This document shows, in pieces, positions 18,596 through 41,661 of a stretch of DNA of 64,000 nucleotides. The notes below the pieces were generated by a model, which ran no database searches, was not told the origin of the DNA, and saw only the letters and a program-made list of their open reading frames with translations. The position numbers and the translations under genes are program-made. How positions within the stretch are numbered: the stretch's first letter is position 1; the number at the start of each line of letters is the position of its first letter. This DNA is from Pisolithus tinctorius. Lineage: Eukaryota; Basidiomycota; Agaricomycetes; Boletales; Pisolithaceae. The stretch lies in the NCBI GenBank assembly GCA_024663395.1, contig JANFAH010000001.1:1860001-1924000 (forward strand), given 5' to 3'.

Positions 18596-18597
18596 GA

Positions 18598-18676
18598 TTC
18601 AGTCACTTGTAGTCCTAAAAGTGGGTCATCCGACATGTACATTTCATCCTGAAACTGGGACTAACTGACATCGGCC
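18598..18676 (+). repeat. left terminal inverted repeat of KDZ-2
   Basis: 79 bp, about 69 identical positions to the inverted 41583-41661. Contains AAAGTGGGTCATCC and TGGGACTAAC, both conserved at the other end. Confidence 0.85.
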
Positions 18677-18729
18677 GGTGGTCCCTAGGGTTGGGTAGGC
18701 TGGACTGTGAAGGTGGGGTCGGCCTATGT

Positions 18730-19891
18730 CACAGGATGATGGATCAACTTCCCTGGAAGTGGGGTCGGCTGACATGACTATAGGATGGATTGATGACCTG
18801 GAAGTGAGGTCGGCTGATGCAGCTATGGGATGAATTAGTGTCCTGGAAGTGGGGTCGGCTGACACAGCTATGGGATGAATTAGTGTCCTAGAAGTGGGGT
18901 TGGCTGACACAGCTATGAGATAGATTAGTGTCCTAGAAGTGGGGTCAGCTGATGCAGCTATGGGATAGGTTAGTGTCCTGGAAGTGGGGTCGGCCGACAC
19001 AGCTATGGGATGAATTAGTGCCCTAGAAGTGGGGTCGGCCGACACAGCTATGAGATAGATTAGTGTCCTAGAAGTGAGGCCAGCCGACACAGCTATGAGA
19101 TAGATTAGTGTCCTAGAAGTGGGGTTGGCCGATGCAGCTATGGGATAGGTTAGTGTCCTGGAAGTGGGGTCGGCTGACACAGCTATGGGATGAATTAGTG
19201 CCCTAAAAGTGGGGTCAGCCGATGCAGCTATGAGATAGATTAGTGTCCTAGAAGTGGGGTCGGCCGATGCAGCTATGAGATAGATTAGTGTCCTAGAAGT
19301 GGGGTTGGCCGATGCAGCTATGGGATAGGTTAGTGTCCTGGAAGTGGGGTCGGCCGACACAGCTATGGGATGAATTAGTGCCCTAGAAGTGGGGTCGGCC
19401 GATGCAGCTATGAGATAGATTAGTGTCCTAGAAGTGGGGTCGGCCGACACAGCTATGAGATAGATTAGTGTCCTAGAAGTGGGGTCAGCTGACACAGCTA
19501 TGAGATAGATTAGTGTCCTAGAAGTGGGGTCGGCCGACACAGCTATGGGATAGGTTAGTGTCCTGGAAGTGGGGTCGGCCGATGCAGCTATGGGATAGGT
19601 TAGTGTCCTGGAAGTGGGGTCGGCTGACACAGCTATGGGATGAATTAGTGTCCTAGAAGTGGGGTCAGCTGATGCAGCTATGGGATGAATTAGTGTCCTA
19701 GAAGTGGGGTCGGCCGATGCAGCTATGAGATAGATTAGTGTCCTAGAAGTGGGGTCAGCTGACACAGCTATGGGATAGGTTAGTGTCCTGGAAGTGGGGT
19801 CGGCCAATGCAGCTATGGGATGAATTAGTGCCCTGGAAGTGGGGTCAGCTGACACAGCTATGGGATGAATTAGTGCCCTAGAAGTGGGGTC
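18730..19891. repeat. 45-bp minisatellite, left subterminal array (part 1)
   Basis: About 26 tandem copies of a 45-bp unit (GTCGGCCGACACAGCTATGG... ending CCTGGAAGTGGG). Because 45 is divisible by 3, the minus strand reads as a long open frame of a 15-residue repeat (DPTSRTLIYLIAASA type); I regard this as a by-product. Variation is mostly CG versus TG or CA (GTCGGCCGAC against GTCAGCTGAC). Confidence 0.88.
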
Positions 19892-20285
19892 TGTGACGAG
19901 ACCTAAACAACAGGGTTTGTTGTAGGCTCGCACCAAGAACCAACAGAAAGAGGAAGAGAGAAAGAGGGGAAAACGACTTAGAAGCAGGCAAGTTTAGGAC
20001 TCGGAGACCCAAATGAACTAGCTTAGAGCTAGTTGGGTGATTGAGCAATGGTACTTATACTACAGTACATGAGGTAACGGTGAGGTGTACATGAGGTCCA
20101 TGACATCATAGTGATGTCACAATGATATCACAGTGGAGCGGAACGTACTAGAAGGAGGAAGCAAGGTAAAGGTGAGGCGAGGTCCAGACCGGGGTCCGGG
20201 CTGAGTTCAAGAGATAAGATAAGACGAAAAGATTAGATAAGACGAAAAGAAAAGAAAAGAAAGGAAAAGAGTACGTATCGTAACA
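19892..20285. mobile_element. solo LTR inserted in the 45-bp array
   Basis: 394 bp beginning TGTGACGAGACC and ending TATCGTAACA, so the ends are TG...CA with an 8-bp imperfect inverted terminus. It is flanked by the 5-bp direct repeat GGGTC (19887-19891 and 20286-20290), which is part of the array unit it interrupts. It contains a purine-rich GATAAGACGAAAAG tandem near the right end. No coding sequence. This is the expected scar of LTR-LTR recombination of a gypsy-type or copia-type element. Confidence 0.85.
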
Positions 20286-20960
20286 GGGTCAGCCGACACA
20301 GCTATGAGATAGATTAGTGTCCTAGAAGTGGGGTCGGCCGATGCAGCTATGGGATAGGTTAGTGTCCTGGAAGTGGGGTCGGCCGACACAGCTATGGGAT
20401 GAATTAGTGTCCTAGAAGTGGGGTCGGCTGATGCAGCTATGGGATGAATTAGTGTCCTAGAAGTGGGGTCGGCCGATGCAGCTATGAGATAGATTAGTGT
20501 CCTAGAAGTGGGGTCAGCTGACACAGCTATGAGATAGATTAGTGTCCTAGAAGTGGGGTTGGCCGATGCAGCTATGGGATAGGTTAGTGTCCTGGAAGTG
20601 GGGTCAGCTGACACAGCTATGGGATAGATTAGTGTCCTAGAAGTGGGGTCAGCCAACCCAGCTATGTGATGAATTAGTGACCTAGAAGTGGGGTCAGCCA
20701 ACACAGCTATGGGATAGATTAGTGACCTGGAAGTGGGGTTGGCCAACACAGCTATAGGATGAATTAGTGACCTGGAAGTGGTGTCAGCTGACACAGCTAT
20801 GGGATAGGTTAGTGACCTGGAAGTGGGGTTGGCCAAACCAGCTATGGGATAGATTAGTGACCTGGAAGTGGGGCCAGCTGACATGGCTGGGGGAAGGGAT
20901 GATGTCCTGGCAGTGGGGTCAGCTGATGTGGCTGGGGGGAATGAACCATGACCTGGAGTT
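20286..20960. repeat. 45-bp minisatellite, left subterminal array (part 2)
   Basis: About 15 further copies of the same 45-bp unit continuing after the solo LTR. Copies become more diverged toward the inside (GTTGGCCAACACAGC, CTATGTGATG variants). Confidence 0.85.
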
Positions 20961-21324
20961 GTGGTTGGGCAGACACTTTGCAAGAAAGACCAATATCTTG
21001 CTAGTGGGTTAGTGGGGCTGGCCAATCTTATTACTCAGTACACTACTTCCTTGGTAGTTAGCTGGCTGAACCCACATGGTTGTGGAAAAATCCTATATCC
21101 TATCCTTATCCTGTGGTATTGAAGTTAACTCTACCAATCTGGCCATTGTATTGGAATTAACATTGGGCAAATTTACTCAGTTGTGTATCAGTACTTAAGG
21201 AGGAATTGTCCTGCAGGAAATTACTTTTTTTTCTGAACATTCAATGTCATATGAAATTTGAAAACACAAAGCAGCTATTTTTGATTGTAGTACATGCATA
21301 TCATATGTATCAAGGTAGGGTATT

Positions 21325-22912
21325 TTACAAAGATTCCAACAGCCAGGATGATGTTTGCCCCTTTCCCTGTGTCAGTTTGGTAGCCCCTTTGGACATGCAG
21401 ATAGTATAGGTTTGGGGAGGCTGAGATGTGCCTTGTGTGTCCTTCCCACAGCCAGGATTCTTGCACTCATAGGAATAAGTCTGCCCTGAACAACCAGCTT
21501 CCCACTTCTGAATGCTATAACACTGAGGGCACTGGGCAGGCAATTGTTGTCCCCAAGGCCTGATGAACTTGTCAGTCCAGACAAATTTCTCCACCACTAC
21601 CTTCTCCTGCCACAACATCAGGATGATGTTGGAGTGCCTACCCAACATACCACAGTCATTCAGGGCATACCTGACTGCACTTTGGACATGGAAGCCTTGA
21701 ACAAGGGTGGAGTCAAGGACACTCATGAGGAAGGGAATGGTGGTGACTAGTTGAAGTCTCTCAGCATCAAAAAGCAACATGGACCTTGGCTTGAAACTGA
21801 TATGGTGTCAGCCATAACCACCAACATTGAAAGAAAACCTACTGTTGCACAGCTGCCTTCAGTCCTTGGAAGCTCTGCTCCTTCCTTACAGTAGAACCAC
21901 ATACAAAGAAGATGAGGTCTCCACCCTTGACAATGTTGGAGAGGGGTAACAGAAGGCCTTGCAGAAACTGCAACTGGTCAGATGGGAGTGACAGTCAAAC
22001 AATGGTGACTTACCTCAAAGACCTCTGTGGCTATTGGAACCTTATTCTCCATTCCAGAGAACAGATCCCCCCTGTCTTCATCAGTATGGGTAGTAAGGAA
22101 AATGACTACCTTAGCAAAGGTAGTCAGACTTGAAGCTAGCTTTGATGCTGCAGTGTCATAGGCAGCTCTGGACTCCTCAGTGGCAAAGTTGAAGGGCAGT
22201 TGTGAGAAGTGGTAGGTGTCTTGTCTGAAATATCCCTGCAACATGGTGTGAAGGATATGCACAGGGGCATGGCCAAGCTCTAGAGACTCAAGGTGGAGGT
22301 GGATAATGGCAGTAGAGTTACCAGCCACTTCAGAGGTGGTGGCATGCTCAAACCCCCCAATGACCACAAGAGGGTGTTTCAGGACTGGCTTGCCTGACAA
22401 GTAGAAGCCCTGTACTTGGAGTTAGAAGTGATTGGGGTGGCAATATGCACTTACAAAATAGGGCTGAGGACTTTCAAATCTTGTCATTTTCCAATGACAG
22501 GCAACACACCTGAAGTTCATCCAGAGTTTGAGTCAATGGAATTAATTCATAAAAGGGAGGTTAACACACCTGAAGGTCACAGGAAGCTGGGTGACCTCTG
22601 CAAGGCAATCCTCAGGTACTACAACACACTTGTTACACACTACCCTTCTGCATCCTGCCTGATCACAAGGCCACAATGTCCCTCCATCCCTGCACATCAC
22701 ACAGAACTGCATAGAATGTTAGAAAGATGGATGGAATATAAAAAGAGACTTGCCAAGTTCCTCATCCTTCTCTTCTTGGCAACAGGGGCCTTCCTAGCAT
22801 GGGCCTTGCTTGACTTGGCAGCATGTTTTTCCCTAGCTTTCAGACCAGCAAGAGATACCCTGGGAGCTCTACCCCCAGTGGTCTTCTTAGCTGTCTGCTT
22901 GGTCTTCACCAT
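21325..22912 (-). CDS. histone H3-tail-like N-terminus fused to a PHD-like finger protein
   Basis: The ATG at 22910-22912 starts MVKTKQTAKKTTGGRAPR, which matches the histone H3 tail in order and spacing (H3: R-T-K-Q-T-A-R-K-S-T-G-G-K-A-P-R), with Lys at the K4, K9 and R8 positions; a Lys/Ala-rich stretch follows. After an intron (~22749-22707) comes a Cys cluster FCVMCRDGGTLWPCDQ, GCRRVVCNKC, VVPEDC, like a PHD finger, then CVACHWK. Further exons in frame: PYF-GFYLSGKPVLKHPLVV, LHLESLELGHAPVHILHTML, TLTTFAKVVIFLTTHTDEDR, FLQGLLLPLSNIVKGGDLIF, then FIRPWGQQLPAQCPQC and CKNPGCGK, a likely zinc ribbon. The roughly 420-residue product has no nonsense codon although the surrounding DNA has lost most CpGs. 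I recall H3-like starts in other unnamed mushroom proteins, but no function. The last exon end is uncertain. Confidence 0.75.
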
Positions 22913-23270
22913 CTGAGTCTATTATGCCAACATTAGTGAGTGGCAGCAACATATGACACAGAAGGGAACAGTAGCATACCTTATTATCTTTACAAGACAC
23001 AGAAGGTGTAGGGGACAAGCAGTAAGATAACAATAAATGCATTTAGTTTAGTACATATATCATGCAGCAGGGATAGATATCTACATATTTATGGAAAAGA
23101 GAAGCCAATGTATGCAACTACACAACACTGGGCACTGGATAAGCAGACCACAGAGGGTGATATGTAAGTATCATCTGGACACCATGAAGTAGAAGTCCAA
23201 CAACATACCTTATTGGATGAGACACAGCAAGGGAGATGCAGTGTGGCAGGAGGGAGATATGAATTGATAG
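22913..23270. other. upstream region of the H3-tail-like gene
   Basis: No gene seen. It contains scattered ACCTTATT.../GAGACACAGCAAGG motifs that resemble degenerate units of the neighbouring minisatellite. Confidence 0.4.
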
Positions 23271-23274
23271 CCTA

Positions 23275-24900
23275 CTAGTGTGTTTTGTGAGTGGTACAGG
23301 GACACCAGGAACTGGGACAACATACCTTTTGTAGGATGAGACACAGCAAGGGGGTGTTCTGTGAGTGGTAGAGGGATGCCACGACCTGGGACGACATACC
23401 TTTTTTTTTTTGATAAGGCATGGCGAGGGGGTGTTCTGTGAGTTGTAGAGGGACGCCGCGAAGCTGGGACAACACACCTTTTTTTTTAGATGAGCACAGC
23501 GAGGGGGTGTTCTGTGGGTGTTTTGTGAGTTGTAGAGGGACGCTGCATGAGCTGGGACGACGTACCTTTTTTTTGGATGAGGCACGGTGAGGGGGTGTTC
23601 TGTGAGTTGTAGAGGGATGCCGTGAAGCTGGGATGACATACCTTTTTTTTTGGATGAGCATGGCGAGGGGGTGTTCTGTGAGTGGTAGAGGGACGCCACG
23701 AAGCTGGGACGACATACCTTTTTTTTTGGATGAGCATGGCGAGGGGGTGTTCTGTGAGTGGTAGAGGGACGCTGCGAAGCTGGGACAACACACCTTTTTT
23801 TTTGGATGAGCATGGCGAGGGGGTGTTCTGTGGGTGTTTTGTGAGTTGTAGAGGGATGCTGTGCGAGCTGGGATGATGTACCTTTTTTTTGGATGAGGCA
23901 CGGCGAGGGGGTGTTCTGTGAGTTGTAGAGGGATGCCGCGAAGCTGGGATGACATACCTTTTTTTTTGGATGAGCACAGTGAGGGGGTGTTCTGTGAGTG
24001 GTAGAGGGACACTGCAAAGCTGGGATGACATACCTTTTTTTTTGGATGAGCATGGCGAGGGGGTGTTCTGTGAGTGGTAGAGGGATGCCACGAAGCTGGG
24101 ACAACACACCTTTTTTTTTGGATGAGCATGGCGAGGGGGTGGTCTGTGGGTGTTTTGTGAGTTGTAGAGGGACGCTGCGTGAGCTGGGACAATGTACCTT
24201 TTTTTTGGATGAGGCACGGCAAGGGGGTGTTCTGTGAGTTGTAGAGGGATGCTGCGAAGCTGGGATGACATACCTTTTTTTTTTGGATGAGCATGGTGAG
24301 GGGGTGTTCTGTGAGTGGTAGAGGGATGCCGTGAAGCTGGGACGACATACCTTTTTTTTTGGATGAGGCACAGTGAGGAGGTGTTCTGTGAGTGGTAGAG
24401 GGACGCTGTGACCTGGGACGACTTACCTTTTTTTTGGATAAGGCATGGCGAGGGGGTGTTCTGTGAGTTGTAGAGGGACACCGCGAAGCTGGGACGACAT
24501 ACCTTTTTTTTTGGATGAGCATGGCGAGGGGGTGTTCTGTGAGTGGTAGAGGGACACCGTGACCTGGGACGACTTACCTTTTGTTTTTTTGATAAGGCAC
24601 AGCGAGGGGGTGTTCTGTGAGTTGTAGAGGGACGCCACGAAGTTGGGATGACATACCTTTTTTTTGGATAAGCACGGCAAGGGGGTGTTTTGTGAGTGGT
24701 AGAGGGACGCTGGGAAGTAGGATGACATACCTGTTTTGTGGATGAGACAAGGCGAGAGGGTGTTCTGTGAGTGGTAGAGAGATGCCACGCACTGGGATGA
24801 CATACCTGTTTTTTGGATGAGACCCAGCGAGAGGGGGGGGGTGTTTTGTGAGTTGTAGAGGGATGCTGCAAGCTACTTACCTTCTTTTTGAATGAACGGG
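23275..24900. repeat. ~78-bp minisatellite with poly-T, about 21 units
   Basis: Tandem units of about 74-95 bp, each with ACATACC, a run of 7-10 T, GGATGAG, GGCGAGGGGGTGTTCTGTGAGT and GTAGAGGGACGC. A longer unit type with CTGTGGGTGTTTTGTGAG recurs near 23515, 23828 and 24145, giving a higher-order period of ~315 bp. All three minus-strand frames stay open for 400-500 codons, which follows from the repeat having no stop in any frame; I do not treat these as genes. The array is CpG-rich, unlike the CpG-poor element around it. Confidence 0.88.
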
Positions 24901-26220
24901 CTTTGTGAGTAGTATGGGACACTGAACAATGCGCAATAGACTGAGAAGAATGGCAGCATCCTGGTGTGTGATGTGAGTGTTGAAGCCATGAGAGGTTCGA
25001 CAACATACCTTTTTTGTTTTTTTTTTTGAAGGGAGATGCGGCACGACGTACCTATTTTGTGTTTAGAGAGGGAGAGGTGCAAGAGATCCAGAGGACGACG
25101 ACATACCAAAAATTTCGCTGAGACGCAGTGGGGCCAGAGAGTGGGATAATGCAACGATGGTCGGTGAGGGAGACACTGTGTGGCAAGAGGAGAGGAGCAA
25201 AAGACTGTGTCAATCCGGATACTCAGATGCACAGATCTCGATTTTGGACAGGTCATGTAGTGAGACCTATGATAATCTTGGACACAACCTTAATTGTGAC
25301 ATGAACAACGTCATGGCTGTCATGATTATCACACGTGTCTACCTGTACTTCAGATGCGTCTCTGGAACATTATGTAGGACTATATATGGAGTGGTCAGTC
25401 GCCGCTAGGCCGATTTCCAGTTTCAATAAGTGACTACATGTATTAAATGATCCAGTAGTGCTACTACAATACATTTTCTGTGAAATCCCAAGGGTAAGCC
25501 ACCACTACCGCTCAGCCAACGGCACGAGGGAGTGCTTGCTCGGCTCGACAATGCAATTACGAGAATGTCAAGCAAACATTTAGTATTTAGTATATAGAAG
25601 CCAAATCCGGTGACAGTGGAGTCACGTGACATCGCTATTCGTGATGTATAGTATGACATGCGGTACTGACTCAGAGGAAGTTGCTGGCACTCACGGCAAC
25701 TGAACACGTGCCAAGGCCGAGAACGTGACATTGATGGCGACCTCGCTAGTTGGACTGTGGCCAAACAACAGTACATAATGTGACTCCACTATTCGTGATG
25801 TATAGTACGACATGTGGTACTGACTCAGAGGAAGTTGCTGGCACTCACGGCAACTGAACATGTGCCGAGGCCGAGAACGTGACATTGATGGTGACCTCGC
25901 TAGTTGGACTGTGGCCAAACAACAGTACATAAGACTCAAGTATATAAATCCCCCCCAGTCAGTGGCATGTTTTTTCCCTTACTGCGTTTCCCTGCGATGT
26001 GACGCTTCCCCTCCGTCGTCCTCCCTCTCCCTCCATCTCCATCTCCCTCTCCCCCTCTCTCTCTCCCGTTTTGTGTGCTACATCATCTTTGTTTTTATCT
26101 CAGCCTGTCGTCTTGGCTGTCATAAGGTAAGTGGCACCTCTGATCCCAGAATTTTCACATTACTTGATTACTGTTACTTTGCAGCATCCTTGGCACCTCA
26201 CTATTGACTGTAGTCTGCGG
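24901..26220. other. CpG-richer block with a 154-bp tandem duplication
   Basis: No coding region recognised. A segment beginning TATTCGTGATGTATAGTA occurs at ~25636 and again at ~25790, a tandem copy of about 150 bp (both contain GACTCAGAGGAAGTTGCTGG). After it come TATATAAATCCCCCCC (~25939), a long CT-rich stretch and a GTAAG...CAG intron-like segment (~26127-26184), which together resemble a pol II promoter and leader with nothing coding behind it. The block may be a nested insertion into KDZ-2. Confidence 0.45.
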
Positions 26221-27437
26221 CTACAGGATGTAGGGAGGGGCTGCCCTTGACCTTAGATTGTGCTTGGCCAGCGCAATTTTTGGTTGTTGGGTAATATGTT
26301 GGGTCTGGGGGAATAGTCTGTGCCTACATTGTAGGCCAGCTCATGGGATCTGGGGGCTAGTCTGTACCTACATTGTAGGTCAGCTTATGACATTTTATTT
26401 GGTCTGTACCCACCTGTGTGGGTCAGCCTATGATGTTTTTTTTGTGTGGTATGTGTTGGTATATATTGGTAGTAGCTAGTTGGTCAGGCTTTGGTGTAGT
26501 GAGTATTCAACTTCTGTATAATCTATGTTGTACTGACATAAACTTTCTAGAGCTGTTTGTCTTTGACTCCTGGTGAATAAATAGTGCACCTCAGGTATGT
26601 GAACTTTGCAAAGTTGTGTTGATGCTAATGTGTTTTTAGGATCTTCGTTATCAGCTTTTGTGCGCTTTTTTGGGAACTTGGTTGAATTGAGGATGGTTTT
26701 TATTGGCCCAACTGTACTTCTGGAGGAGGGCCCCCTCTGGAATGCAGGCAAGCCTTGGTTTCTTATGAAACCATTATACCTTTGTAGTTGAAATTGTAAC
26801 TGTAGTTGAATTTATGTATGACCTTGTAAATGTCACTGCTTTGATTGGATTTGAATGCTGTGTGGGAATCTATGCTTCTTTTTTTGAATGAAGCATGTGC
26901 TAACCCTAACCCTAGCATAAGACTTGGTGTATTTCTTCATGCAAGTCTCCTTCTAACCCTAACCTTAGCAAATGACTTGGTGTATTGTTTCATGTCAGTC
27001 TGCCTGGCTGGTGGATGGTGCTAGATTAGCACTGGTGTTCCATGGCTGATCTTCTTAAGCAAGGTTTCCCTTTGATGCTCAAGAGCTTGCCAATGGCATT
27101 ACTAGCAACCCAACATCTTCCCTTCAAATGCTGACTGGATGTGTTCCTAGCTGTTGGATGTTGCTAGATTGCTAGATTAGTATTGGTGTTCCATGGTTTC
27201 CCATGATGCTCAAGAGATTGCTGGACTGGATTGACTTGGAGTTCAACTGCTGCTGAGTTTGATTGCACCATTCCAGGCCCCTGCTTACATGACTAGATGT
27301 TTCAAGAAACATGGTGTATCTAGTAGACTAAGTTGGGTTTCTGGATTCTGGATCTTCCCCCAAGTCAAGCAAGGTCCCTTGTGGAGAATAACTTCCAACT
27401 TATGTACTGAGTGATTTTTAACTATTTTTCTCGCGGT
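26221..27437. repeat. CpG-poor spacer with short repeats and telomere-like motifs
   Basis: No gene recognised. A ~45-bp TAGTCTGTrCCTACATTGTAGG motif is repeated around 26300-26420. Two copies of a ~55-bp unit (26890-26995) each carry CTAACCCTAACC followed by a GACTTGGTGTATT tail; CCCTAA is the usual fungal telomere unit. A further diverged pair (TGCTAGATTAG...TGGTGTTCCATGG) lies at ~27017-27210. Confidence 0.55.
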
Positions 27438-27449
27438 TGAAAAATTTTC
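27438..27449 (+). promoter_or_regulatory. shared upstream motif TGAAAAATTTTC (TET/JBP gene)
   Basis: 43 bp before the start codon of the TET/JBP gene. The same 12 bases occur at 34322-34333 and 38140-38151, before the other two plus-strand KDZ-2 genes. Confidence 0.55.
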
Positions 27450-27480
27450 CTTTGACTTTTCCAACACCCCCCACATCATC

Positions 27481-28826
27481 ATGGATGATTCCCTGCATAC
27501 AATGGTGGTTGGAATGCTGAAGGCTGCCTTTGGAACAGTCCCTATGATCTCTTCCAGCTCTATTTTCTCAAATCACCAGCTCAGGAAGCCAAGGTAAGGC
27601 ATAAGCAGTGATGCTACACTTGCTATGTATTTAGTTGGATAATAGACTTCGATCCTTGGCTGAGTTAACCCAAGTCAGGGCAACATTGCAAGGGGAATCT
27701 GGTCTAACTTCAGATGCTATTACATCTTTGGAAGTTAGGCTGGCATCTGCAGTCATTACACATGCCATCCTCAATCCCTGTAGGTGATTTCCACAACAAT
27801 TGCAAGTGATCCAAGTCTGACCCTTAATAGATGTGTTGCATTGGGATGCAGACAGGTTTTCTGAACCATTGGTGCATGCCAAGGACAGGACCATCCATTT
27901 TGAAAACCCAAAAATTGGGTATATCAATGCTCCTGCCACAGTTCTGGATGTGCATGGCAGGGTGATAGTATGGTATCTGCCTGGTATTGTCCCAGATGCA
28001 TGGATAGTGAGTGTTTTCATTCTCTGACAACCCTTCACTACAGCTTTTATATCATAGGAACTTCTCAATTCCCTTCTCCTTTCCATAAAAGACAATCTTC
28101 AGACTGAGCCCAAGAACAAGCCAAAAGACAAAAGCAAGCTTAACAAATGATATGGCCATAAGCATCAGCCTGTTGACCAAGTCATGTATGGACATGGCAG
28201 GATTTCCATGTCTCCTGCCACATTCCAACAGGCTCATGAGGTTTGTCCAGGTGCTGTGATTTCCATGGTAGGGGCTGACAAATTTAAAGAGGTTGGTTGA
28301 TACACTCTATCAAAGCACATCCCTCAAACAGAAAGCCAATAGGGAATGGCTGCTCAAGATTTCTTATGTGGAACACTTCTGGAGCAATATAGCAAAGGTC
28401 TCATTGCCAGATATGGCCAGGGCTGGTGATCAAGCAATGTTGGCCAAGGCTGGCAGGGTGGAGAATGAGATATCCCTGGATTGGCCATCAGTCTATACCA
28501 ACATTGATATTATTGTCAATCAGGAAACTCCCTCTCACCGAGATGTCACATCCACCCCAACCCTTCTGGATTCATTAGTGAGCCTGGGTTCTCACAATGC
28601 TAAATTCCTTATTCCAGATCTGGGGGCCGAACTGGCTTATTCCCCAGGCACCATGATTTTCCTATCAGGAAAAATCCTTCAACATTCTGTGCCAAAGTGG
28701 GAGAAGGGAGAAAGAATTGCATTGGTGCATTATATGAAGGACAAAGTACATGACCGACTCAAGGTCACAAGACCAGCATGGACTACCCAAAAGGACATTC
28801 TTGGGTTGGCTGTCAGATACACTTAA
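27481..28826 (+). pseudogene. TET/JBP-family 2-oxoglutarate/Fe(II) dioxygenase, one nonsense codon
   Basis: ATG 27481 starts MDDSLHTMVVGMLK; after a first intron the domain begins VHAKDRTIHFENPKIGYINA, APATVLDVHGRVIVWYLPG, then MYGHGRISMSPATFQQAHE, and in the last exon (28265-28826) VDTLYQSTSLKQKANREW, WPSVYTNIDIIVNQETPSHR-D, AKFLIPDLGAELAYSPGTM and LQHSVPKWEKGERIALVHY. The HxD iron ligands (HRD), the distal His (LQHSV) and the Arg for 2-oxoglutarate (GERIALVHY) are all present. Members oxidise 5-methylcytosine or thymine in DNA; expanded fungal copies are known to travel with KDZ transposons. TGA at 28148-28150 interrupts an otherwise in-frame linker (CGA to TGA would explain it), so this copy may be inactive or rescued by splicing I cannot see. 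Confidence 0.8.
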
Positions 28827-28909
28827 AACACATTTTAGTGGCAATTTTTGGGTACAAATATTTTAAATACATTTGATAACCTTGTTCTGGACTTGTGTGG
28901 TGTTGTTTT

Positions 28910-29271
28910 TCACAGATTAATCTATACGAAGTATACTCAGTTGTGCGCGAGTAGCGACAACATCTGAGGTGACAAATCTACTGTGCGAGACTAAGTACTG
29001 TAGGTATTACAATACTGAAACCTGTGGATGTTGAATCTGCAATTTGCATGACAAGGGCAGTCTGTTCGAGACGCGCTACATTCTTTGTAAGTAATGAGAA
29101 ACACACACATAGGTGCGAGACACAATGAATACAATAGGCGCAAGGGCGCGAAAGTTAATTGCGTGGTTAATAGTAATGTAAAGTGTGAAAAACCCAAAAA
29201 CGGAAAGTAATTCTCATGTCTCGGAGCGGATGCGTTCGGAAAGGACTATGTACGACTTGCCAAATCTAACA
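28910..29271 (-). repeat. 3' LTR of the nested copia (362 bp)
   Basis: Direct copy of 33844-34311 minus a ~106-bp internal segment. In the 291-bp block that aligns without gaps I count about 15 differences, all at CG/TG/CA dinucleotides. Confidence 0.92.
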
Positions 29272-29283
29272 CTCCCCCTCAAG
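29272..29283 (-). promoter_or_regulatory. copia polypurine tract
   Basis: In element orientation CTTGAGGGGGAG sits directly before the 3' LTR start TGTTAG; it also overlaps the last codons of the polyprotein. Confidence 0.75.
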
Positions 29284-32200: not shown

Positions 32201-33748
32201 GACGTGATAGAGCCCAGCTTTAGACTTAGGGATGCGACCAACGACATCATCGGCAGGGTTCCTGATGGTACAGGTGCCATCAGCGAAGGTGATGGAGTAG
32301 CCTAGCTGGTCAAGGTGGCTGATGGACACGAGGGTGTATCCAACCTCGGGTGAGTATAGCACTTTGGTGAGTCGCAGTTTGGTTACATCGTACCCGTTCA
32401 GCACCTCTATGACTAACTCCCCCATAGCTGTAGCGTCGAAGAGTTGTTTGTTGGCAGCCGAGAATGACTTGGGTGGTATCGCCACCAATGTCTTGAACTT
32501 CTCCTTGTAGGGGGAGATGTGTCGAGTGGATCCAGAATCGTAGAGTTCAATGACAGGTGCACTGATGGGGCTGTCATTCACGAGGTTCGCGAACTCTGGG
32601 GAGATGATAGTGGGCTCGACATGATTTGAAGTGTTGCTGTGGGGTGAGTGCTCGTCATCCACATCCCCCATCTCGCTGAACCAGTTGTCATCAGTAGCAA
32701 CGAAGCAGCGTCGATCGTTGTCATCATCGTCCGATGACACGCTTAACAGTTCAGGGAGTGGGACTTCATCATCAAGTTCCTCCAGGGTGTGCACTGAAAA
32801 GGCGCCCTCTTCATCAGAATCAAATGTTACAGCGTGTGCGGATCCCTTTGTAACGGCAGGTGGAGTTTCCTTCTTTTTATCAGGGTCGGGACATTGAGCT
32901 TTGTAGTGGTCCCTCGAGCCACAGTTCCAGCAGGGTCCTCATGAGTGAGCGTACCCTCTCGAACTTCCCCCTCATCCACCATTCCTACCATTTCCTCACC
33001 CCTGACTGGAGTGGTTCCCAGGGGTCAAAGCCAAGGCCTCATCACCATCGCGAGCCTTCTGTTTCACTCGTGAGTTACGAGTCTCTTTACGTCCTCGCTG
33101 TTCTGACTCTTCAATAATCAGGGAGATGAGGATATTGGGATCAATGGTTTGTGTTGGGCTGTACAGGCGGGTGGTCGCTAGCTGTCCAGATGTGAAGCTA
33201 GCGAGGTACTTAGGCAGCGACTGGATGATGGTCGAACGGTAATCCTTTTCTTCGATCTGTACACCAACGGCAGCTAACTCGTCTCTCTTCGTACGCAGAT
33301 CATCCAAGAACTGGTGGATGTCACCGTCGACAGGGCACTGCAAGTTCAAAAACTTGGTGCGAAGGTCGGTCTGTGCGTAAGTACCCTTTTCCGTGTACTC
33401 GCAAACAATCTCATTCCACATAGCCACGACACTATTAAGGCTATGCACTCGGAGGGCAGTGGAATCAGGGATCCGTTGGGTAAGTAAATGTTTCGCCATA
33501 TTTTCGCTTTTCTGCCACTTAGCAAGTTCATCAGTGTCTGGAGGGACTACAGTTACGAATCCATCTTGATCGGTGGAGGTCATGCTGACAGGGGAAAGGG
33601 AGGTGCCATCGAAGTGGGACCACAGTTCCTTAGCTTTGACGGCAGTCTGGAAGCAAAGGGAAAAGATCGCCCAGTTCGCGCCTTTGATGTCAAGCTTCGG
33701 AACGTTGCCCAGGAGGGTGTCAGTGGTGACAGGGATAGCAGTAGTCAT
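29279..33748 (-). pseudogene. copia Gag-Pol polyprotein with seven TGA stops
   Basis: Start MTTAIPVTTDTLLGNVPKLD (33748). In order: Gag (LWSHFDG, RTKFLNLQCPVDGDIHQFL); CCHC knuckle CWNCGSRDHYKAQC; protease YDSGSTRHISP; integrase zinc region and catalytic core (MELHRRMGHISPS, SNIWGPAPVETLGGRRYY, HNGVAECLNRTLLEKVRAM); reverse transcriptase (WVFRAKKDT, QYKARLVAQGFSQVEG, DIKGAYLNG, MIIVVHIDDCTI); and RNase H (ADADGSMAEDRRAVSGYAF, SMTESEYVA, HIDIRFHFIHWVIENGKI). About 1,490 codons in a single frame are broken only at 32996, 32972, 32939, 31742, 31376, 31103 and 30800 (low coordinate of each stop). All are TGA, several at family-conserved Arg positions (SDRGGEY, KGRWVG). No TAA, TAG or frameshift was found. 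Confidence 0.92.
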
Positions 33749-33830
33749 TTTGAGGGGTAATTGAGAACTGGTTTGGCAGCAAGAATATCGAAACAAAAAG
33801 GTGAGACATTCGTGGGCTTATTTAGAGCGC

Positions 33831-33843
33831 GGGGCTCATAACC
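33831..33843 (-). promoter_or_regulatory. copia primer-binding site, initiator tRNA-Met half
   Basis: The plus strand reads GGGGCTCATAACC, which is the anticodon-arm sequence of initiator tRNA-Met (CAT anticodon). Priming by an internally cleaved tRNA-iMet is established for Drosophila copia. It touches the LTR with no gap. Confidence 0.75.
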
Positions 33844-34311
33844 TCACAGATTAATCTATACGAAGTATACTCAGTCGCACGTGAGTAGCGACAATGTCTA
33901 AATATTCACCTATACGAAGTATACTAGGCACGAGGGTAAGTAAAGTAAAGAAGAGGGTTAAGTGTGCGTGCTCACCTCAGTCACGCACGAGTAGCGACAA
34001 CGTCTGAGGTGACAAATCTACTGTGCGAGACTAAGTACTGTAGGTATTACAATACTGAAACCTGCGGATGTTGAATCCGCAATTTGCATGACAAGGGTGG
34101 TCTGTTCGAGACGTGCTACATTCTTTGTAAGTAATGAGAAACGTGCACATAGGTGCGAGACACAATGAATACAATAGGCGCAAGGGCGTGAAAGTTAATT
34201 GCGCGGTTAATAGTAATGTAAAGTGTGAAAAACCCAAAAACGGAAAGTAATTCTCACGTCTCGGAGCGGACACGTTCAGAAAGGACTACGTACGACTTGC
34301 CAAATCTAACA
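33844..34311 (-). repeat. 5' LTR of the nested copia (468 bp)
   Basis: Longer than its partner because the segment CTATACGAAGTATACT...GAGTAGCGACAA is present twice (33855-33895 and 33910-33990). Confidence 0.92.
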
Positions 34312-34321
34312 GTTTTGGGGA

Positions 34322-34333
34322 TGAAAAATTTTC
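34322..34333 (+). promoter_or_regulatory. shared upstream motif TGAAAAATTTTC (KDZ gene)
   Basis: 56 bp before the start codon of the CxC2-type KDZ gene, and ten bases after the right edge of the nested copia. It is followed by GCTTTTGACTCTTCC; the TET/JBP gene has CCTTTGACTTTTCC after its copy. Confidence 0.55.
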
Positions 34334-34377
34334 AATACAGCTGAAAACCTTGCTTTTGACTCTTCCTGTGCTCAATC

Positions 34378-37300
34378 ATGCGTCGTCATAGAACCAAAGT
34401 CCTTGGCAAAAGCTCTGCAGGAGGTTTGTATAAATTTGAAGTCACTAAAACCCGGAGAGGAAAGGACACCTACAAGGAGGTGGATGCTAGACACCTCTAC
34501 CTCCCATCTCAGAGTCAACCTTCAACTCCAAGGACCCCCAGGACAATAGGCTCCCAAAATGTTGTCCCAGACTCCTTTGACATGCCTACCTTGGACTGGA
34601 ATGATGAGGAAGATACCCCAAATACTAGGAGGGTTACCAAGGTGGGAAGTTTTGCCTGATACTGCATTGGCTAAATTATCCCCTAGAGTCAAAATGATTT
34701 CATCAGAGAATGGCTGCCTTGGAGAGCAGAATATCTCAAAGTCATTCTTGAGGGAGAGCAGCTGGCTAAGGGGGGGATATGTGAGCAGTGCTGTCAGGCA
34801 GAAGGAAGTATCAGATGCATGTCCTGCATTGGTGTGCATGCCTGGTGTGGTCCTTGTGCTGTGAAAGTGCATCAAAATCTTCCATTCCACAAGGTACAAA
34901 GATGGAATGCTACTCATTACCAGGCTACCTCTTTGATGGCACTTGGGTTCCTTTGGCACATTGGCCATGGGGGTTGTCCTTGCCCTCAAAACAGACAGAA
35001 TCAGGATCCAAACTCAGAGGAGTTGGGCTATACTTCTGGGGAAGGGCCTCCCAATTACAGGTCAATGGCAGTCATATCCTGTAGCCTCCATGTTAACCTC
35101 TGGTAGCAGGAGATCCTTCAGATCAAAAATGACCATAGTGCACACAGAAGGAATTTTCACTCATGAGATTTCTTGGTGCAATTGCCCTGAGTCAGATCCA
35201 ATGGACTGGCACCTTGATTTACTCAGGGAAAGACTCTTTCGAGCCAGTATAACAAAGCCCAAGACTGCTTTCACCTTTGATGTTCTTAATCACTTTCTCA
35301 TTGATGCCCTGGAATGCAAGACTTCAGCTATGAGTTTCTATCAGAAGCTGAAGAGGTTCACCAACAATGCATTTCCTGACTGTATACCAGTTGAGTGCCA
35401 TGCACTATTTGCTCTTAGGGGGTTCTATTAATGCATTCATTTCCAATTAGGACAGGTACCGAGAGCTGATGAGGGTTTCCAGACTGTGGAGGGATTTGAA
35501 ACATAGGAAATGGTTTGGCTTTGGTCATGATAAAGAACAAGATCCTAGACAAGGAGAACTTGCACTCTTTTGTCCTGCCTGCCCACAACCAGGTATTAAT
35601 TTACCTCCAGATTGGAAAACCTGATATGACAGGTATGGAGTGATAATCTGTAGGGTTTTGATTTCTAACTCCCCTCCCCCCTTAGTGATACCATAATGAG
35701 GCAATATGTCATGGATGGCAACTTCACTGCTCAGCATATGAAAATGAACAAGCCTGAGTTGGATGTGTCATTATCAGATGGAACTGGTTACATGGTTGCT
35801 GAAAAGCCCTACCAGGCCCATCTTGAGCAGTCTTTGGATAACAAGGAGGTGAGTTGTCCCAAGGTCATGGAGTTTAAATGACCCACTGTACTGGTAGAGA
35901 TCCACCTGCAGCAATCACAGGGCAATCAATGCTGCTAATATTAACAAGTCCAATCTCCGGTCCACTGGGATTGGTGCCACAGCCTGTGCTCGCCATGGTT
36001 GCTTTGTTCCCCATTCTGTGGTGGACTTTCAGAAAGGGGAAAAGTGAGTGGACCTGATGGATGTACTGGAAGCCTTTGGAACTCATTTTGTGCTAGGTAC
36101 ATGAACACAGATTACTCCATCTGCAGTGCTCTTGATTATCATTCAGAAAGCATCACAAAGGCCCTTGTCATTTATGATGTTGGGTGCCAGTGGAGTATTA
36201 ACTTCCAGAGTCAGGTAAAATCCAGCTGCTCTCTCCATCTCCCTCCCTCCCTGGAAATCATTCCTGCTGTGGGGAAGTTTCATCTTGCTGCCCACAAACT
36301 CTCTTGCTTTCCAAGATATAGCCTCAACTTTATCAAGGGTGCTGGTCATCTGGATGGTGAAATTTTGGAGACATTGTGGGCTCCATTCAATAAGATCTCT
36401 CCCACTGCAAGGTCTATGACTCAGGCCCACAGACAAGAAGTGTATGATGACCATATGAGAGATTCTAACTGGAAAAAAATTGTCAACATGGGTGAGAGAC
36501 CTTTTCTTCAAAGAGAAGTTAATTTACCCTGTACATCTCAGTTCCTGCACTGTTGAAAAAATACAAGACCTCACACAAGTGCCTAGAAGAAATGAATCAG
36601 GCATATGAGCAGTTGACAGCTGTTCTAGACCCTGGCCAACTTGCCCAATGGGAGTCGGATGTTCTTGAGGCAGAAGCAAATCGAGGTGATTCCCTAGACA
36701 TTTATTTGTTGAAAGGGGAAAAAGGTCAGTATGTTCCTAAGAAACCCTGGGCATGTCTGATGGCCTGTAGCCCCTACCATGGGTGAAGTGCAGTTAAAGC
36801 TCATGAAAAATCCACCTGTGTCCCCAGGGAGCCATGGTTCTGTGGCTTGGCTTGTGGAAGGAATTAGCATAGAGGATGCACAGTATGGTCTGTGGTTTCC
36901 AGAAGCAATAGGTTGCTAACCAGACCTGCAGGGACCAGCTAAGATCTGAGCTTAGACAGAGCCACATGTCTACCAGACAAGAAATCAAAGTCTCAGAGAA
37001 AAGAAAAAGACTTTCTGCCAGGATTGACAAATTCCATGGCACCAGCCAGGCATTTCTCAAAGGTTTGGAGGTGGACGATGTCTTCATACCCCAGGATGAT
37101 CCAGCATTCCTTGGGCAAGGTGAAGAAATTGATGACAATGGAGAGTACTGGGAAGATGATGAGGATTGGGAGGCTACAGAAGAAGGAGAGGAGCTACCTG
37201 CTGAGCTCATGAGTATATGGATGCCCTCATCCATTGGAGCAACCAAACTGATGGAGCTTGGCCTTCATGACCTCCTCAAAGAAGAAATGGAACTCAGGAT

Positions 37301-37978
37301 TGGGCAAGCTAATGATTGTCTAGACCAGCTCCAAACCAACCTTGGACACAAGGCAATGTTATACAGACAGAACTTCTGCAGTGCACAATCAACTAGGGAA
37401 GGTACAAGAACCAAGCAGGACATCCAAAAAGTGGTGGCTCGGATAAACAAGCAGGTCAGAAGTTATCAGAGGGCAAGGCAGGCCATTCTCCAGTTGGAAC
37501 CCAATCAAGAGATTGGACAAAAATATCAGGCTATTCAGCCCCAGGACCTGGCAGTGAGTAAGGATGTTACAGAGGAGAACCAGTTTGGGCAGGGAACCAG
37601 CAAAATGGCATGGTTTTGGATGATGGATGGTGAACAGGGTCAACTGAATGCTGAGAAGGGGGGTTTAATGGAGGAGTGTAAGTGTTAATACTACTCAAAA
37701 AAATCTCACCAATAAATTGTGGGGCAGTTTACAGGATCAACTGGCTCAAAGCAAGGGCAAGAAGGGACAGGTGGAAAGAAGAATTGTCATTGGTGAGGCA
37801 TGAGATGGTTTGGGCCATCTTATGGTTTGAGTTCCAGAAGGACATATGGGAGAAAAGGGCTCTACAATTGTTGGAACCAGGGAAAAAGGCTTATGCTCAT
37901 AAGCAGATAGTGTTGTGGACTGACTTTTCCAAAAAGGCCCAATTGATGTTCCAAGGTAAACAAATGGATTGTATTTAG
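34378..37978 (+). pseudogene. KDZ transposase, CxC2 type, one nonsense codon
   Basis: ATG 34378 (MRRHRTKVLGKSSAGGLYKF). Exons join in phase through about nine introns: a Cys/His module ICEQCCQAEGSIRCMSCIG, HAWCGPCAVKVHQNLPFH; MTIVHTEGIFTHEISWCNC (the CxC2 signature) and RLFRASITKPKTAFTFDVLN; LWRDLKHRKWFGFGHDKEQ; ALFCPACPQPGINLP; MRQYVMDGNFTAQHMKM; ATACARHGCFVPHSVVDFQ; KYMNTDYSICSALDYHSES, VIYDVGCQW; HLAAHKLSCFPRYSLNFIKG, GAGHLDGEILETLWAPFNKI; a coiled C-terminal region; YRINWLKARARRDRWKEEL; end at 37978. These match KDZ transposases with predicted acidic catalytic residues in MDGN, YDVGCQW and DGEILETLW. The TGA at 35622-35624, right after GINLPPDWKT, is the only break. If read through or spliced differently, the protein could still be made. 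Confidence 0.86.
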
Positions 37979-38139
37979 AACATGGGTATATGTGTATAGT
38001 TTTCCAATTACCCTTGCTTTGCACTTGGTATCTGAATCAAAGTGAATAGCAAATACATCAAAACAATCATACCATAATGGTACCTTTCCTAAAGAGTGAT
38101 GGCCGAAAACTTCAACCTCCTGCCTAAATTGGGAAAGGC

Positions 38140-38151
38140 TGAAAAATTTTC
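38140..38151 (+). promoter_or_regulatory. shared upstream motif TGAAAAATTTTC (third KDZ-2 gene)
   Basis: 71 bp before ATG 38211, followed by ACCTTGCTTCC. Confidence 0.5.
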
Positions 38152-38210
38152 ACCTTGCTTCCAACCTCCATCATCTGTGCTGCTAATTATCCCCCTGATT
38201 TTATTCTCTC

Positions 38211-40589
38211 ATGGCTGATTGGTCTGAAGTCTACTCTGATCTGCTGTCCTCCTATGTGGAGCAGTACACAGATGCCCGAGGGAATCCTGACCTCAGGGCC
38301 CAGATCCTGGCTGATGTGAAATCCCAGATCCTTCAGCAAGCATCTTCAGGATCTGTGGAATTGCCCCAGAACTTGAGAGTGGTAGGGTATCTTTTTCATC
38401 AAGTTTCACATATCTCAAGTGTATTTAGGCCATCAGAAGGGTGTTTTTGCCAGAACTAGACCCTGAAGACCAGGATGATGAGGAACACATCATTGAGAGC
38501 ATCCTGGCTGCAACAGACAAGAGGAAGGAGCAGCCTGGGACTGGTGAGGATGAGGATGGCAGAGAGGAGAGGACCAGACCTACCAAGGCTGGAAATTACA
38601 GAAAACCCTTCACTGATTTTACTGCCTCCCAGCAGCTCTTCAAAGAGGACATGGATGCCTATGATAGGGAGAGGAGGGACACCAAGGACCCCAAGACCAT
38701 AGGTCAGAGGACCAAAATCATCCAACAGTGGTGGGAGTCTCTTGCAGATGACAAGAAGGCTGAAGCAGGGAGGGCTGCTTCCAAGTGGAATAAGTTGGGA
38801 GCTCCAAAAGAAACTCATGAATTGTCAGTGCTGGTCTACTTCAAATGTCTTATACTAATCATGCAATAATTCAGGTACAGGAGAAAAAATTTTCCCAACA
38901 TGGCCAGAGACTTTATTGAAACAGTCAGGAGGACCATGGGGTCAAATATAGTGATGTTTCTGGCTCATGAGACTACTGATTCTCAGATCAAGATGGCAGT
39001 GTAGGTTCCCCTTTACCTTGTCTATCCAATGCTAATGAAGAAACCTAGCTTTGAAACACAACCCCCTGATGGGAAGAAGGCCTTCTCAGAGTCTTCAGAG
39101 CCCACCAAGGATTGGGTTCTAAAGGGAGAGCAAATGTTAACCAATTATCTTTTGACTGAAGCTGGTAAGTGATAAACATTGGTGATCAATGTAATATGTG
39201 TACCTAGGTTGATTCCATACTCAGCTGAGGAAGATTTGAATGATGAGAATCCAAAGGTGGAGATAGCCTTGGATGATGAAGGAAACCCAGAGGTACCAGC
39301 TTGGACTGGTCAGAAACTCAAGGTCCAGTAGAGTTTGGCAAGAATGGTCTTCCAGGCTGCCTATGGTATGTTCTTGATTGTCAAGTGCATCTACAGTTGT
39401 TGATGGAAGTTGGAAACATAGCAAAGTTTACAGGGAAGCCCAAGGCCAAGGTTCCCTGGGGCCTGCTTATCAAGTCCCATTTGGAGTATCTGAGTTCCGA
39501 TTCCATCCCAGAAGGATTTGTGATGAAAGATCCTTCAAAATGGACCAAGGCCGACATGTGGATGCTTTGGAATCATTGGAATTCCCAAGAGGAGGAGGAT
39601 AAGGTGATTGTTTCATTCATCAAGTGCAAAAAGGAGGACAAGCCATTGGGAAGGCCCTGGAACAGGAAAACCCCATCTAAAAAGAGAGAGTGGATGAGCC
39701 CTGGGGAGGACAGTGAAGCTGGGGTGGAGGCCAAGCCCTCAGATTTAGGGGAAGAAATTGGTGGGGCTGGTATGACCCCTATAGCAACTTCATCAGGGGC
39801 CCAGGATATCCTTGACTCTGGGAGGGCCCCATCTGAAGATACCCCTCATGAATCCAGCCCTGCTTGTCATGCCAATGGGGACAGGGTGAAATATTTAAAG
39901 TCCCTTTGCATCATGCCCAGGTACCAGGAACTTGTTGAGCTTGTAGATGGCTTGCCAGAGACAGTAAGTGATAAACTCTCTTCAAATACCAGGTTAACAA
40001 ACATTTTGTACAGGAACCTGATGCTGGACCAGTCAACCTGCCTGTCTGGGCATCTTGGGCCTGGAGTGCCCAGTATTTGCCCCAGGAGATGCATGGCAAT
40101 GGGGATTCCTTCTGGAAGGCACTGTATCACTTGCAAAGTGAAAAGTTTGCATCCACCCAGAAAGGTCTTACCATTGTACTGGGATTCAGTTTGTTGTGGA
40201 GGGAGTGCAAAAGAGCACAGGACATAGAATCAGATGACCCTGAAGCTGCTAATCTGGGCTTTTTGCTAGGCTCAGGTCTTGATATCCACAAGGGGGAAGA
40301 TGTTATGGGTGCAGTGGGGCTGGTAGTTGCAAGACTGCAGCAGAATTCTGGTGGCTCAAGCAGAGGGATTGGTGCACAGGAAACAACTGGGGTCAGTGCA
40401 GGGGATTCCTGTCCCACCCAGGGGGGTGGCATGAAGGAATCCCAGAATACAAGAAAGGATGTGAGGAAAAGAAAAAGGGGAGGCAGTGGGGATGTTGATC
40501 AGAAGATGGCAAAGGAGGGTGAAGAGGCAAGCAAGAAATCAACTAGAGCTCGTCAACCAACCAAGAGAGCTCTGGGTCTTGGTCTATAA
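38211..40589 (+). CDS. KDZ-2 accessory protein with HMG-like segment and basic tail
   Basis: ATG 38211 (MADWSEVYSDLLSSYVEQYT) opens a multi-exon gene ending at 40589. An acidic stretch (LPELDPEDQDDEEHIIESIL) precedes a ~70-residue segment FTDFTASQQLFKEDMDAYDR...IIQQWWESLADDKKAEAGRA, whose spacing of aromatic and Trp residues weakly recalls an HMG box. Later exons give NMARDFIETVRRTMGSNIVM, KAKVPWGLLIKSHLEYLSSD, DPSKWTKADMWMLWNHW, MPRYQELVELVDGLPET, LPVWASWAWSAQYLPQEMHG, and a Lys/Arg-rich C-terminus (RKDVRKRKRGGSGDVDQK, STRARQPTKRALG) that looks like a nuclear or DNA-binding tail. It lies 232 bp after the KDZ gene on the same strand and shares the upstream motif. I do not recognise a named family. 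Exon borders around 39,000-39,400 are uncertain, but I saw no unavoidable stop. Confidence 0.62.
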
Positions 40590-40879
40590 ATAAACTGTAG
40601 ATGGTGTGAATCAAAAGGATCCCTATATATGGCTACCCATGCTCATTGCAAGTTTCAAACCCTGTGAGATCACTGACATCACCTGGAGGTGAAGAATGGC
40701 CATGGATTCAGGGGGTAAGGCCACCCCCCAGTGAGGTTGGCCAACACTGGTCTCAGGGGGTATGTCCATCTGGAAGTGTCATCAGAGTCAATACTTCTGG
40801 TAACATCTAAATTGACAAGCAATTGATTATGCCAAGGGAATTTTCAGGGTTTGGCCAACCCTACTTCCAGGTGGTGAGG
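40590..40879. other. spacer between the last KDZ-2 gene and the right array
   Basis: No gene. Contains two degenerate repeat-like blocks (CCCCCAGTGAGGTTGGCCAACACTGG near 40727) that look like isolated array units. Confidence 0.45.
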
Positions 40880-41545
40880 TCTGTGTCCATCCCCCAGTGA
40901 AATCGGCCGACACCACTTCCAGGGTGTGAGTCCATCCCCCAGTGAGGTTGGCCGACACCACTTCCAGGGTGTGGGTCCATCCCCCAGTGAGGTCAGCCAA
41001 CACCACTTCCAGGGTGTGGGTCCATCACCCAGTGAGGTCAGCCGACACCACTTCCAGGGTGTGGGTCCATCGCCCAGTGAGGTCGGCCAACACCACTTCC
41101 AGGGTGTGGGTCCATCGCCCAGTGAGGTCGGCTGACACCACTTCCAGGGTGTGGATCCATCGCCCAGTGAGGTCGGCCAACACCACTTCCAGGGTGTGGA
41201 TCCATCACCCAGTGAGGTCGGCCAACACCACTTCCAGGGTGTGGGTCCATCACCCAGTGAGGTCAGCCAACACCACTTCCAGGGTGTGGGTCCATCGCCC
41301 AGTGAGGTCGGCCGACACCACTTCCAGGGTGTGGGTCCATTGCCCAGTGAGGTCGGCCAACACCACTTCCAGGGTGTGGATCCATCCCCCAGTGAGGTCA
41401 GCCAACACCACTTCCAGGGTGTGGGTCCATCACCCAGTGAGGTCGGCCGACACCACTTCCAGGGTGTGGATCCATCCCCCAGTGAGGTCAGCCGACACCA
41501 CTTCCAGGGTGTGAGTCCATCCCCCAGTGAGGTCAGCCGACCTCC
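40880..41545. repeat. 45-bp minisatellite, right subterminal array
   Basis: About 15 copies of a 45-bp unit containing CACCACTTCCAGGGTGTGG, GTCCATC and CCCAGTGAGGTCGGCC. Both strands read as repeat ORFs because 45 is a multiple of 3. The unit has the same length as the left array (18.7-21.0 kb) and, in opposite orientation, shares CCACTTCCAGG and GTCGGCCGAC while the middle differs. Confidence 0.88.
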
Positions 41546-41582
41546 CTCCAACATGTTGGCCTATCCACCATCAGGGTCTATA

Positions 41583-41661
41583 GGCCGATGTCGGTTAGTC
41601 CCACTTTCAGGACCAAATGTGCATGTTGGATGACCCACTTTCTGGATTACATGTGACTGAA
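41583..41661 (-). repeat. right terminal inverted repeat of KDZ-2
   Basis: Inverted partner of 18598-18676. Copia coding sequence starts at the very next base. Confidence 0.85.

Follow-up and report, generated by a model that had tools for sequence, protein, structure and literature searches.

A Kyakuja-like KDZ transposon of Pisolithus tinctorius carries a TET/JBP gene and a gene for a histone H3-tail mimic as standing cargo

The 64,000-nucleotide stretch of the Pisolithus tinctorius genome analyzed here (contig JANFAH010000001.1, positions 1,860,001 to 1,924,000; hereafter the window) contains a recently mobile, Kyakuja-like transposon of the KDZ group. Its standing gene set consists of a transposase, a TET/JBP oxygenase, an accessory gene and a gene whose product opens with a histone H3-like tail. 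We favor, with a probability of about 0.55, a reading in which the TET and H3-tail proteins would together oppose silencing, the one on DNA and the other on chromatin. The original prediction for this locus, made from the sequence, fared well as an observation, which could be enlarged; of its interpretation, the status of the genes as cargo stood, and the description of this particular copy as a methylation target needs shifting towards its lineage. The features of the element are as follows.

18591..41668, unstranded: whole KDZ transposon, TET+ Kyakuja-like, nested Copia included (end alignment of 19 copies)
18591..18676, plus strand: left end, 7-bp CACATGA and 79-bp inverted repeat (69/79 identical with the right arm)
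18752..20873, unstranded: left subterminal array of 45-bp repeats, 47 copies
21325..22912, minus strand: H3-tail gene, 447 aa, six exons (manual spliced model)
22754-22912, 22570-22706, 22455-22509, 22014-22409, 21843-21967 and 21325-21796, minus strand: exons of the H3-tail gene, first intron GC-AG
22850..22912, minus strand: H3-tail mimic, Met and residues matching H3 1-20 (PDB and family-profile matches)
23280..24874, unstranded: 76-bp minisatellite separating the H3-tail and TET genes
27635..28823, plus strand: TET/JBP gene (Tet_JBP E 3e-9; splice sites approximate)
27635-27784, 27821-28024 and 28151-28297, plus strand: TET/JBP stretches, followed by the catalytic exon 28272-28823 (conserved relative to the C42 copy)
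28910..34311, minus strand: nested Copia LTR retrotransposon with 5-bp GTTTT duplication (compared with the C1:5021214 copy, which lacks the insert)
34687..37685, plus strand: KDZ transposase gene (profile matches; splice sites approximate)
34687-35103 (ORF), 34937-35428 (CxC2 exon), 35945-36553 (KDZ core exon) and 36912-37685 (ORF), plus strand: parts of the KDZ gene
38199..40586, plus strand: accessory gene(s), ORFs 38199-38456, 38429-38866, 39280-40224 and 39975-40586
40878..41541, unstranded: right subterminal array of 45-bp repeats, 15 copies
41583..41668, minus strand: right end, 79-bp inverted repeat and GGGTCTG (arm comparison)

The inverted ends originally placed at 18598-18676 and 41583-41661 do match each other, at 69 of 79 positions. 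The true boundary of the element lies 7 bp further out on each side (5'-CACATGA...GGGTCTG-3'), and these 5'-CA..TG-3' termini are found in all 19 aligned copies. Exact 7-bp target site duplications accompany 15 of the 19 copies examined. Four of these 15 (on C75, C22, C8 and C12) occupy one common insertion site, leaving 12 distinct duplication sites, among which no common sequence is seen by eye. The four copies lacking a duplication are the window copy, one on C17 and two inverted copies on C46. The C46 pair has swapped flanks, with CATATTG at one side of each (read by eye), as recombination between the two copies would give. Copy counts are to be taken with caution because Pisolithus assemblies can contain allelic scaffolds (PMC10066745, in part). 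The nested Copia, overlooked in the original prediction, measures 5.4 kb (LTRs 94%), so that the element proper occupies ~17.7 kb here. The window copy is flanked by a HET-domain ORF and a Copia-type reverse transcriptase ORF (RVT_2 slightly under the cut-off).

That the genes travel together is evident from the remainder of the genome (92.5 Mb in 221 contigs), in searches that scored the best candidates only (e.g. 40 of 200, 97 of 194). The left end occurs in at least 40 copies, the best 40 of 200 candidates having been scored, and the H3-tail exon gives 54 matches. Grouping by strand and distance used all 40 left ends, 52 of the 54 H3-tail matches (two second pieces excluded), 41 of 150 TET rows at no less than 59% identity (four second pieces excluded), 39 of 150 KDZ rows at no less than 58% (five excluded) and the best 40 of 403 right-end rows; neighbors up to 32 kb apart were joined, so loci carrying insertions count as complete. 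Among the resulting 65 clusters, 29 loci contain the left end, H3-tail gene, TET/JBP exon, KDZ exon and right end in a single order, and the right end alone is missing from 3 more. In this layout the H3-tail exon accompanies 37 of the 40 scored left ends and the TET exon 33; other copies of the ends thus do include both genes, as cargo inside the same ends. Features standing alone comprise 9 H3-tail matches, 8 right ends and 3 left ends, one of the last having an otherwise complete set 42 kb away on its contig. The ten copies fetched measure 15.7-17.5 kb, and the four gene blocks are 99.0-100% identical across 11 copies, from which recent mobility as one unit follows. An identical 73-residue H3-tail ORF recurs in 20 places and an identical TET exon in 18. 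The H3-tail gene is oriented opposite to TET and KDZ, and a diverged sister set at C42, where the family ends are not matched, has it head-to-head with TET and KDZ as well. The spliced model of a diverged copy at C2:1202288 equals the 447-aa window model in length. The 29 loci in constant order, together with spliced models of equal length, rule out a decayed neighboring gene or an annotation artefact.

The enzymatic genes are as originally read. The KDZ (CxC2) transposase matches PF18758 at E 4e-28 and CxC2 at E 6e-23, and 25 whole-exon matches to the KDZ core are open. The TET/JBP dioxygenase matches Pfam Tet_JBP at E 3e-9 and keeps the H-x-D motif, the distal His and the Arg relative to CcTet (7vpn, E 2e-12). 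The roles of part of these residues in TET/JBP catalysis are general background. The C42 sister copy also conserves three stretches upstream of the catalytic exon. Of 32 full-length TET exon matches within the family, 23 are free of stops and 9 have one to three. Catalytic residue roles are as given by Kojima (2025; PMC12730594, in part), and the Ser and Asp named there, at CcTet positions 331 and 337, are present in both TET+ Kyakuja and the window family in an alignment read by eye. CcTet of Coprinopsis cinerea (7vpn, 7w5p, 8jkk) has the same catalytic motif set; unlike the window TET, it is not presented in the passages cited here as the cargo of a repeated element. The predicted accessory protein corresponds to ORFs at 38.2-40.6 kb, for which no Pfam or PDB family was recognized; an early impression of an HMG box found no confirmation in the same searches and was dropped. 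The accessory block is 99.4-100% identical across 11 copies (its openness was read from the window copy only), and its sequences are contained in P. orientalis models P0078 and P0080.

TET+ Kyakuja DNA transposons are known from Agaricomycetes (Kojima 2025; PMC12730594, in part); that TET/JBP genes ride on KDZ elements was known, as the original prediction stated. Both these transposons and the window family carry a KDZ transposase and a TET/JBP gene inside complete ends, make a 7-bp target duplication and terminate in CA..TG. By termini and duplication length, the window family resembles TET+ Kyakuja most. The Laccaria families Kyakuja-1_LB and Kyakuja-2_LB, in contrast, are stated in the excerpted text to be without TIRs, whereas the window family has a 79-bp imperfect inverted repeat beginning 7 bp in and, unlike the two Laccaria families, 45-bp arrays. 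Because of the TIRs we use the label "Kyakuja-like" and do not count the family as a TET+ Kyakuja member. Other transposon genes aimed at silencing, namely those of SET methyltransferase-carrying Harbinger/MuDR elements and the anti-silencing proteins of plant Vandal elements, are like the proposed function of the window family in being directed at silencing; the passages on them in PMC12730594 mention no H3-tail mimicry. In the main text of that paper "histone" occurs four times, never for an H3-like transposon protein, and its supplementary sequences may hold an unremarked H3-tail ORF. Among the best-ranked literature matches, none reported a transposon with an H3-tail gene, in line with the novelty originally suggested.

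The genes of the element are strongly depleted in CpG, as had been noted: the observed/expected ratio is 0.00 in the H3-tail block, 0.03 in the accessory block, 0.07 in KDZ and 0.27 in the TET block. By comparison, the window gives 0.76 and 0.95 outside the element, and the nested Copia 0.90. No CpG occurs in the 448 codons of the H3-tail coding sequence, which encodes 21 of 21 arginines by AGR, whereas 37 of 51 arginines in two Copia exons are CGN; the KDZ, TET and accessory exons read give ratios of 0.00-0.10. Fetched whole copies have ratios of 0.25-0.31, and in the window copy 141 of 207 CpG lie within the arrays and minisatellite. The CpG-poor state is common to copies 99-100% identical, so most of the loss must have taken place in the ancestral line that they share, with the proteins staying conserved; "methylation target" thus fits the lineage better than this copy itself. 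Some loss nevertheless goes on, given that of 113 sites with two states among the copies, 42 are CpG-context C/T or G/A differences of unpolarized direction (2/19, 11/37, 20/31 and 9/26 in the four blocks). CpG methylation of transposon-rich regions is found in most Basidiomycota (PMC13297926, in part). Long exposure to CpG methylation combined with selection for the proteins would be the simplest reading of this composition, the other being a direct advantage of CpG absence.

The H3-like opening of the cargo protein, MVKTKQTAKKTTGGRAPR, is identical to H3 1-17 at 12 of 17 positions. Among 3,140 shuffled homologues the best score was 8/17, reached four times and never exceeded. All of the 60 PDB matches to the tail listed, of 133, are H3 tails (best E 0.0024), and a family profile matches at E 9e-8. 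Homologues number 171 (85 from a first search, 72 from a profile search and 14 from a Mycena query), two of the searches having scored only candidates with the most words in common. Their hosts include Pisolithus, Suillus, Rhizopogon, Leucogyrophana and Mycena, and genomic context comes from the P. tinctorius genome alone. A recognizable tail (H3 1-17 at 8/17 or better) is present in 133 of them; the remaining 38 include fragments and models starting elsewhere. Chance and low complexity are ruled out by the shuffles, 132 of the 133 counted tails scoring at least 9/17, and also by MARTKQTARKSNGGSAPK in a relative from Mycena whose overall identity is ~25%.

Within the 133 tails, the best-kept residues are G12 (132), K9 (130), K4 (129), T6 (120), A15 (119), P16 (113) and R17 (111), and a Met immediately precedes the tail in 119, as in H3; some Mycena members have the K9-R17 stretch only. 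K14 is kept in 33 and R8 in 44, with K at the latter position in 82; the window family additionally replaces A1 by V and R2 by K. In an alignment of 54 proteins, tail windows rank second and sixth among 368, and information content is 3.03 bits for the tail, 2.47 for the finger, 2.39 for the C-terminal fold and 1.43 for the tail-finger linker. Two families at 51.9% identity differ over the tail's 21 codons by 7 silent and 6 replaced, as against 22 of 29 replaced in the linker (dS saturated). This conservation and codon pattern point to selection on the tail itself, and the H3 sequence is kept in position, as in a histone mimic. The R8K substitution, with A1V and R2K in the window family, speaks against a perfect H3 substitute, and, with R8 mostly K and K14 mostly lost over the family, the tail is not a faithful mimic for all H3 enzymes.

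The PHD-like finger that had been predicted behind the tail is backed by PDB profile matches of 1e-8 to 3e-6 and is nearest to the fingers of CHD4, SP140, PHF21A, ATRX and AIRE, a class that binds unmodified H3K4; the Pfam PHD score on the H3-tail proteins is below the Pfam cut-off. In 13 rows, seven of its eight zinc ligands are invariant Cys and the eighth is conserved at 90% or above. An H3 tail and an ADD/PHD-type finger are also joined in PDB 3a1b (DNMT3A with Histone H3.1 in one chain), which we take to be an engineered fusion and which the family profile matches over chain 1-125 of 159. This laboratory construct is without the caspase-like part of the H3-tail protein.

That part, overlooked in the original prediction, is a predicted caspase/CHAT-like fold C-terminal to the PHD finger. 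A first structure model (pLDDT 64.5) gave no Foldseek match below 1e-3, a glycosidase ranking first; a second gave three (8tl0 and CED-3 twice), followed by mixed unrelated folds. Tail residues 1-12 have pLDDT below 50, so that docking of the tail on the finger is not predicted. All of 8 diverse rows have the same His and Cys in the fold, and both residues are conserved at 90% or more in 40 and 54 rows. They lie 47 apart, directly after predicted strands 211-217 and 260-264 (sequence positions on the predicted model), and their conservation favors an enzyme. Pfam scans of 12 proteins and the PDB profile search yielded no CHAT or caspase sequence match, and profile A5 in the latter gave two unrelated matches only (E 1.5-1.6). 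With a CHAT-like fold and no CHAT sequence profile, the name caspase/CHAT-like is preferable to CHAT. SAVED-CHAT (8tl0) and caspases differ from the H3-tail protein in having no sequence similarity to it, its own fold following an H3 tail and PHD finger. The C-terminal end of the protein is zinc-ribbon-like. Pfam CHAT matches three other loci of the genome.

In the favored reading, TET would oxidize methylated bases on the element, and the H3-tail protein would present the H3 N-terminus (residues 1-20) and act by mimicry on machinery that depends on the H3 tail. The tail could be an internal ligand of the protein's own PHD finger, displaced by nucleosomal H3, or it could compete for host readers and writers. 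A bolder version, which we regard as doubtful, is a chromatin-gated protease: its own tail, seated on the PHD finger, would keep the caspase-like domain inactive until displaced by nucleosomal H3 whose K4 is bare, and the enzyme would then cut the H3 tail or silencing factors where TET clears methylation. If true, the transposon would possess an anti-silencing machine working on DNA and histones at once. To our knowledge, no machine of this kind has been described.

Somewhat less doubtful is a decoy acting in trans, in which H3-like tails hold host K4/K9 readers and writers off the element and the caspase-like part is dead or structural. The pre-eminence of K4, K9 and G12 among the tail residues, and the Met directly before 119 of 133 tails, would suit such a decoy, but a dead domain would not be expected to keep its His and Cys in 8 of 8 diverse rows and at 90% or more in 40 and 54. 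Some K9 methyltransferases, moreover, need H3 R8, and the change to K should weaken their engagement. It is unlikely that the protein is mainly a tether, its PHD finger linking the transposition complex or target choice to bare-H3K4 chromatin and the tail only regulating the finger. The nearness of the finger to the CHD4/SP140/PHF21A/ATRX/AIRE reader class agrees with this role; the caspase-like fold, however, would be left unexplained, and the 12 duplication sites have no common sequence by eye.

Outside the family, two solo H3-tail loci were read (C27:27706 and C48:90228; C1:591050 and C2:1031117 were left out), and tblastn with the family TET, KDZ and accessory exons found no match in the 9.5 kb upstream of either, which argues against their being further elements. 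The stretch upstream of C27:27706 is CpG-poor and has a reverse transcriptase-like ORF (by eye). An allelic pair of H3-tail relatives (C21:752518 and C48:90228) is embedded in sequence of host-like CpG (0.77 and 0.70) with host-type genes around it (by eye), which places the gene outside the element as well. This pair could be cited for capture of a host caspase-like gene, kept since its loss harms the cell and not for transposition, yet such an origin is highly improbable, as the pair is without the C-terminal part (by eye) and may be an escaped copy, and the diverged C42 set, with no family ends matched, has the gene head-to-head with TET and KDZ as in the family. Only 3 of 128 TET matches from other families have one of the 16 H3-tail places outside the family within 25 kb; the 128 were compiled by hand from search rows, and some may represent a single gene in two pieces. 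The H3-tail gene is therefore no general partner of TET and, as far as found, belongs to one clade of TET-carrying elements.

To the known transposon TET genes, this family adds a protein in which a conserved H3-tail mimic, a finger of the H3-reader type and a predicted caspase-like fold are fused, a new protein family for studies of histone mimicry. With many near-identical copies whose genes are almost free of CpG, the element offers a natural, testable system in which DNA methylation and H3-based silencing may be opposed together.

The left end of the element directly abuts a candidate heterokaryon incompatibility gene:

Window 16913-18598: HET-domain ORF (Pfam E 3.6e-5)

Elsewhere in the P. 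tinctorius assembly (G000), two element copies on contig C46 (71510-88309 and 105125-121272) are mutually inverted with their 7-bp flanks swapped, the pattern left by inversion through recombination between the two. Beyond this near-identical family, the genome holds ~128 more TET/JBP matches, spread over several other families, with ORFs of ~183, 201, 224 and 239 aa; among the matches listed, they far outnumber those of the family studied.

Within the element, a 76-bp minisatellite (window 23280-24874) separates the divergent H3-tail and TET/JBP genes; by eye, P. orientalis gene models P0001 and P0080 take this repeat as coding sequence. Annotated P. orientalis proteins P0078 and P0080 each join accessory-gene and H3-tail-gene sequence, and these fusions represent either rearranged copies or wrong gene models. 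Of histone H3, the Mycena homologues P0163, P0165 and P0166 retain only the K9-R17 stretch (AQKSTGGKAPR), preceded by an unrelated start.

The H3-tail/PHD/caspase-like gene also occurs outside the element. An allelic pair at C21:752518 and C48:90228 (L036, L056-L059), 97-98% identical across 6.6 kb, lies in host-like surroundings with a CpG o/e of 0.77, and its C-terminal part is absent, as judged by eye. This gene is a chromosomal copy, either escaped or ancestral. Another H3-tail gene, on C27, is CpG-free. The 9.5 kb upstream of it (C27:28401-37900, L055) yielded no KDZ or TET matches and contains, by eye, an RT-like ORF; this stretch is possibly another vehicle for the H3-tail gene.
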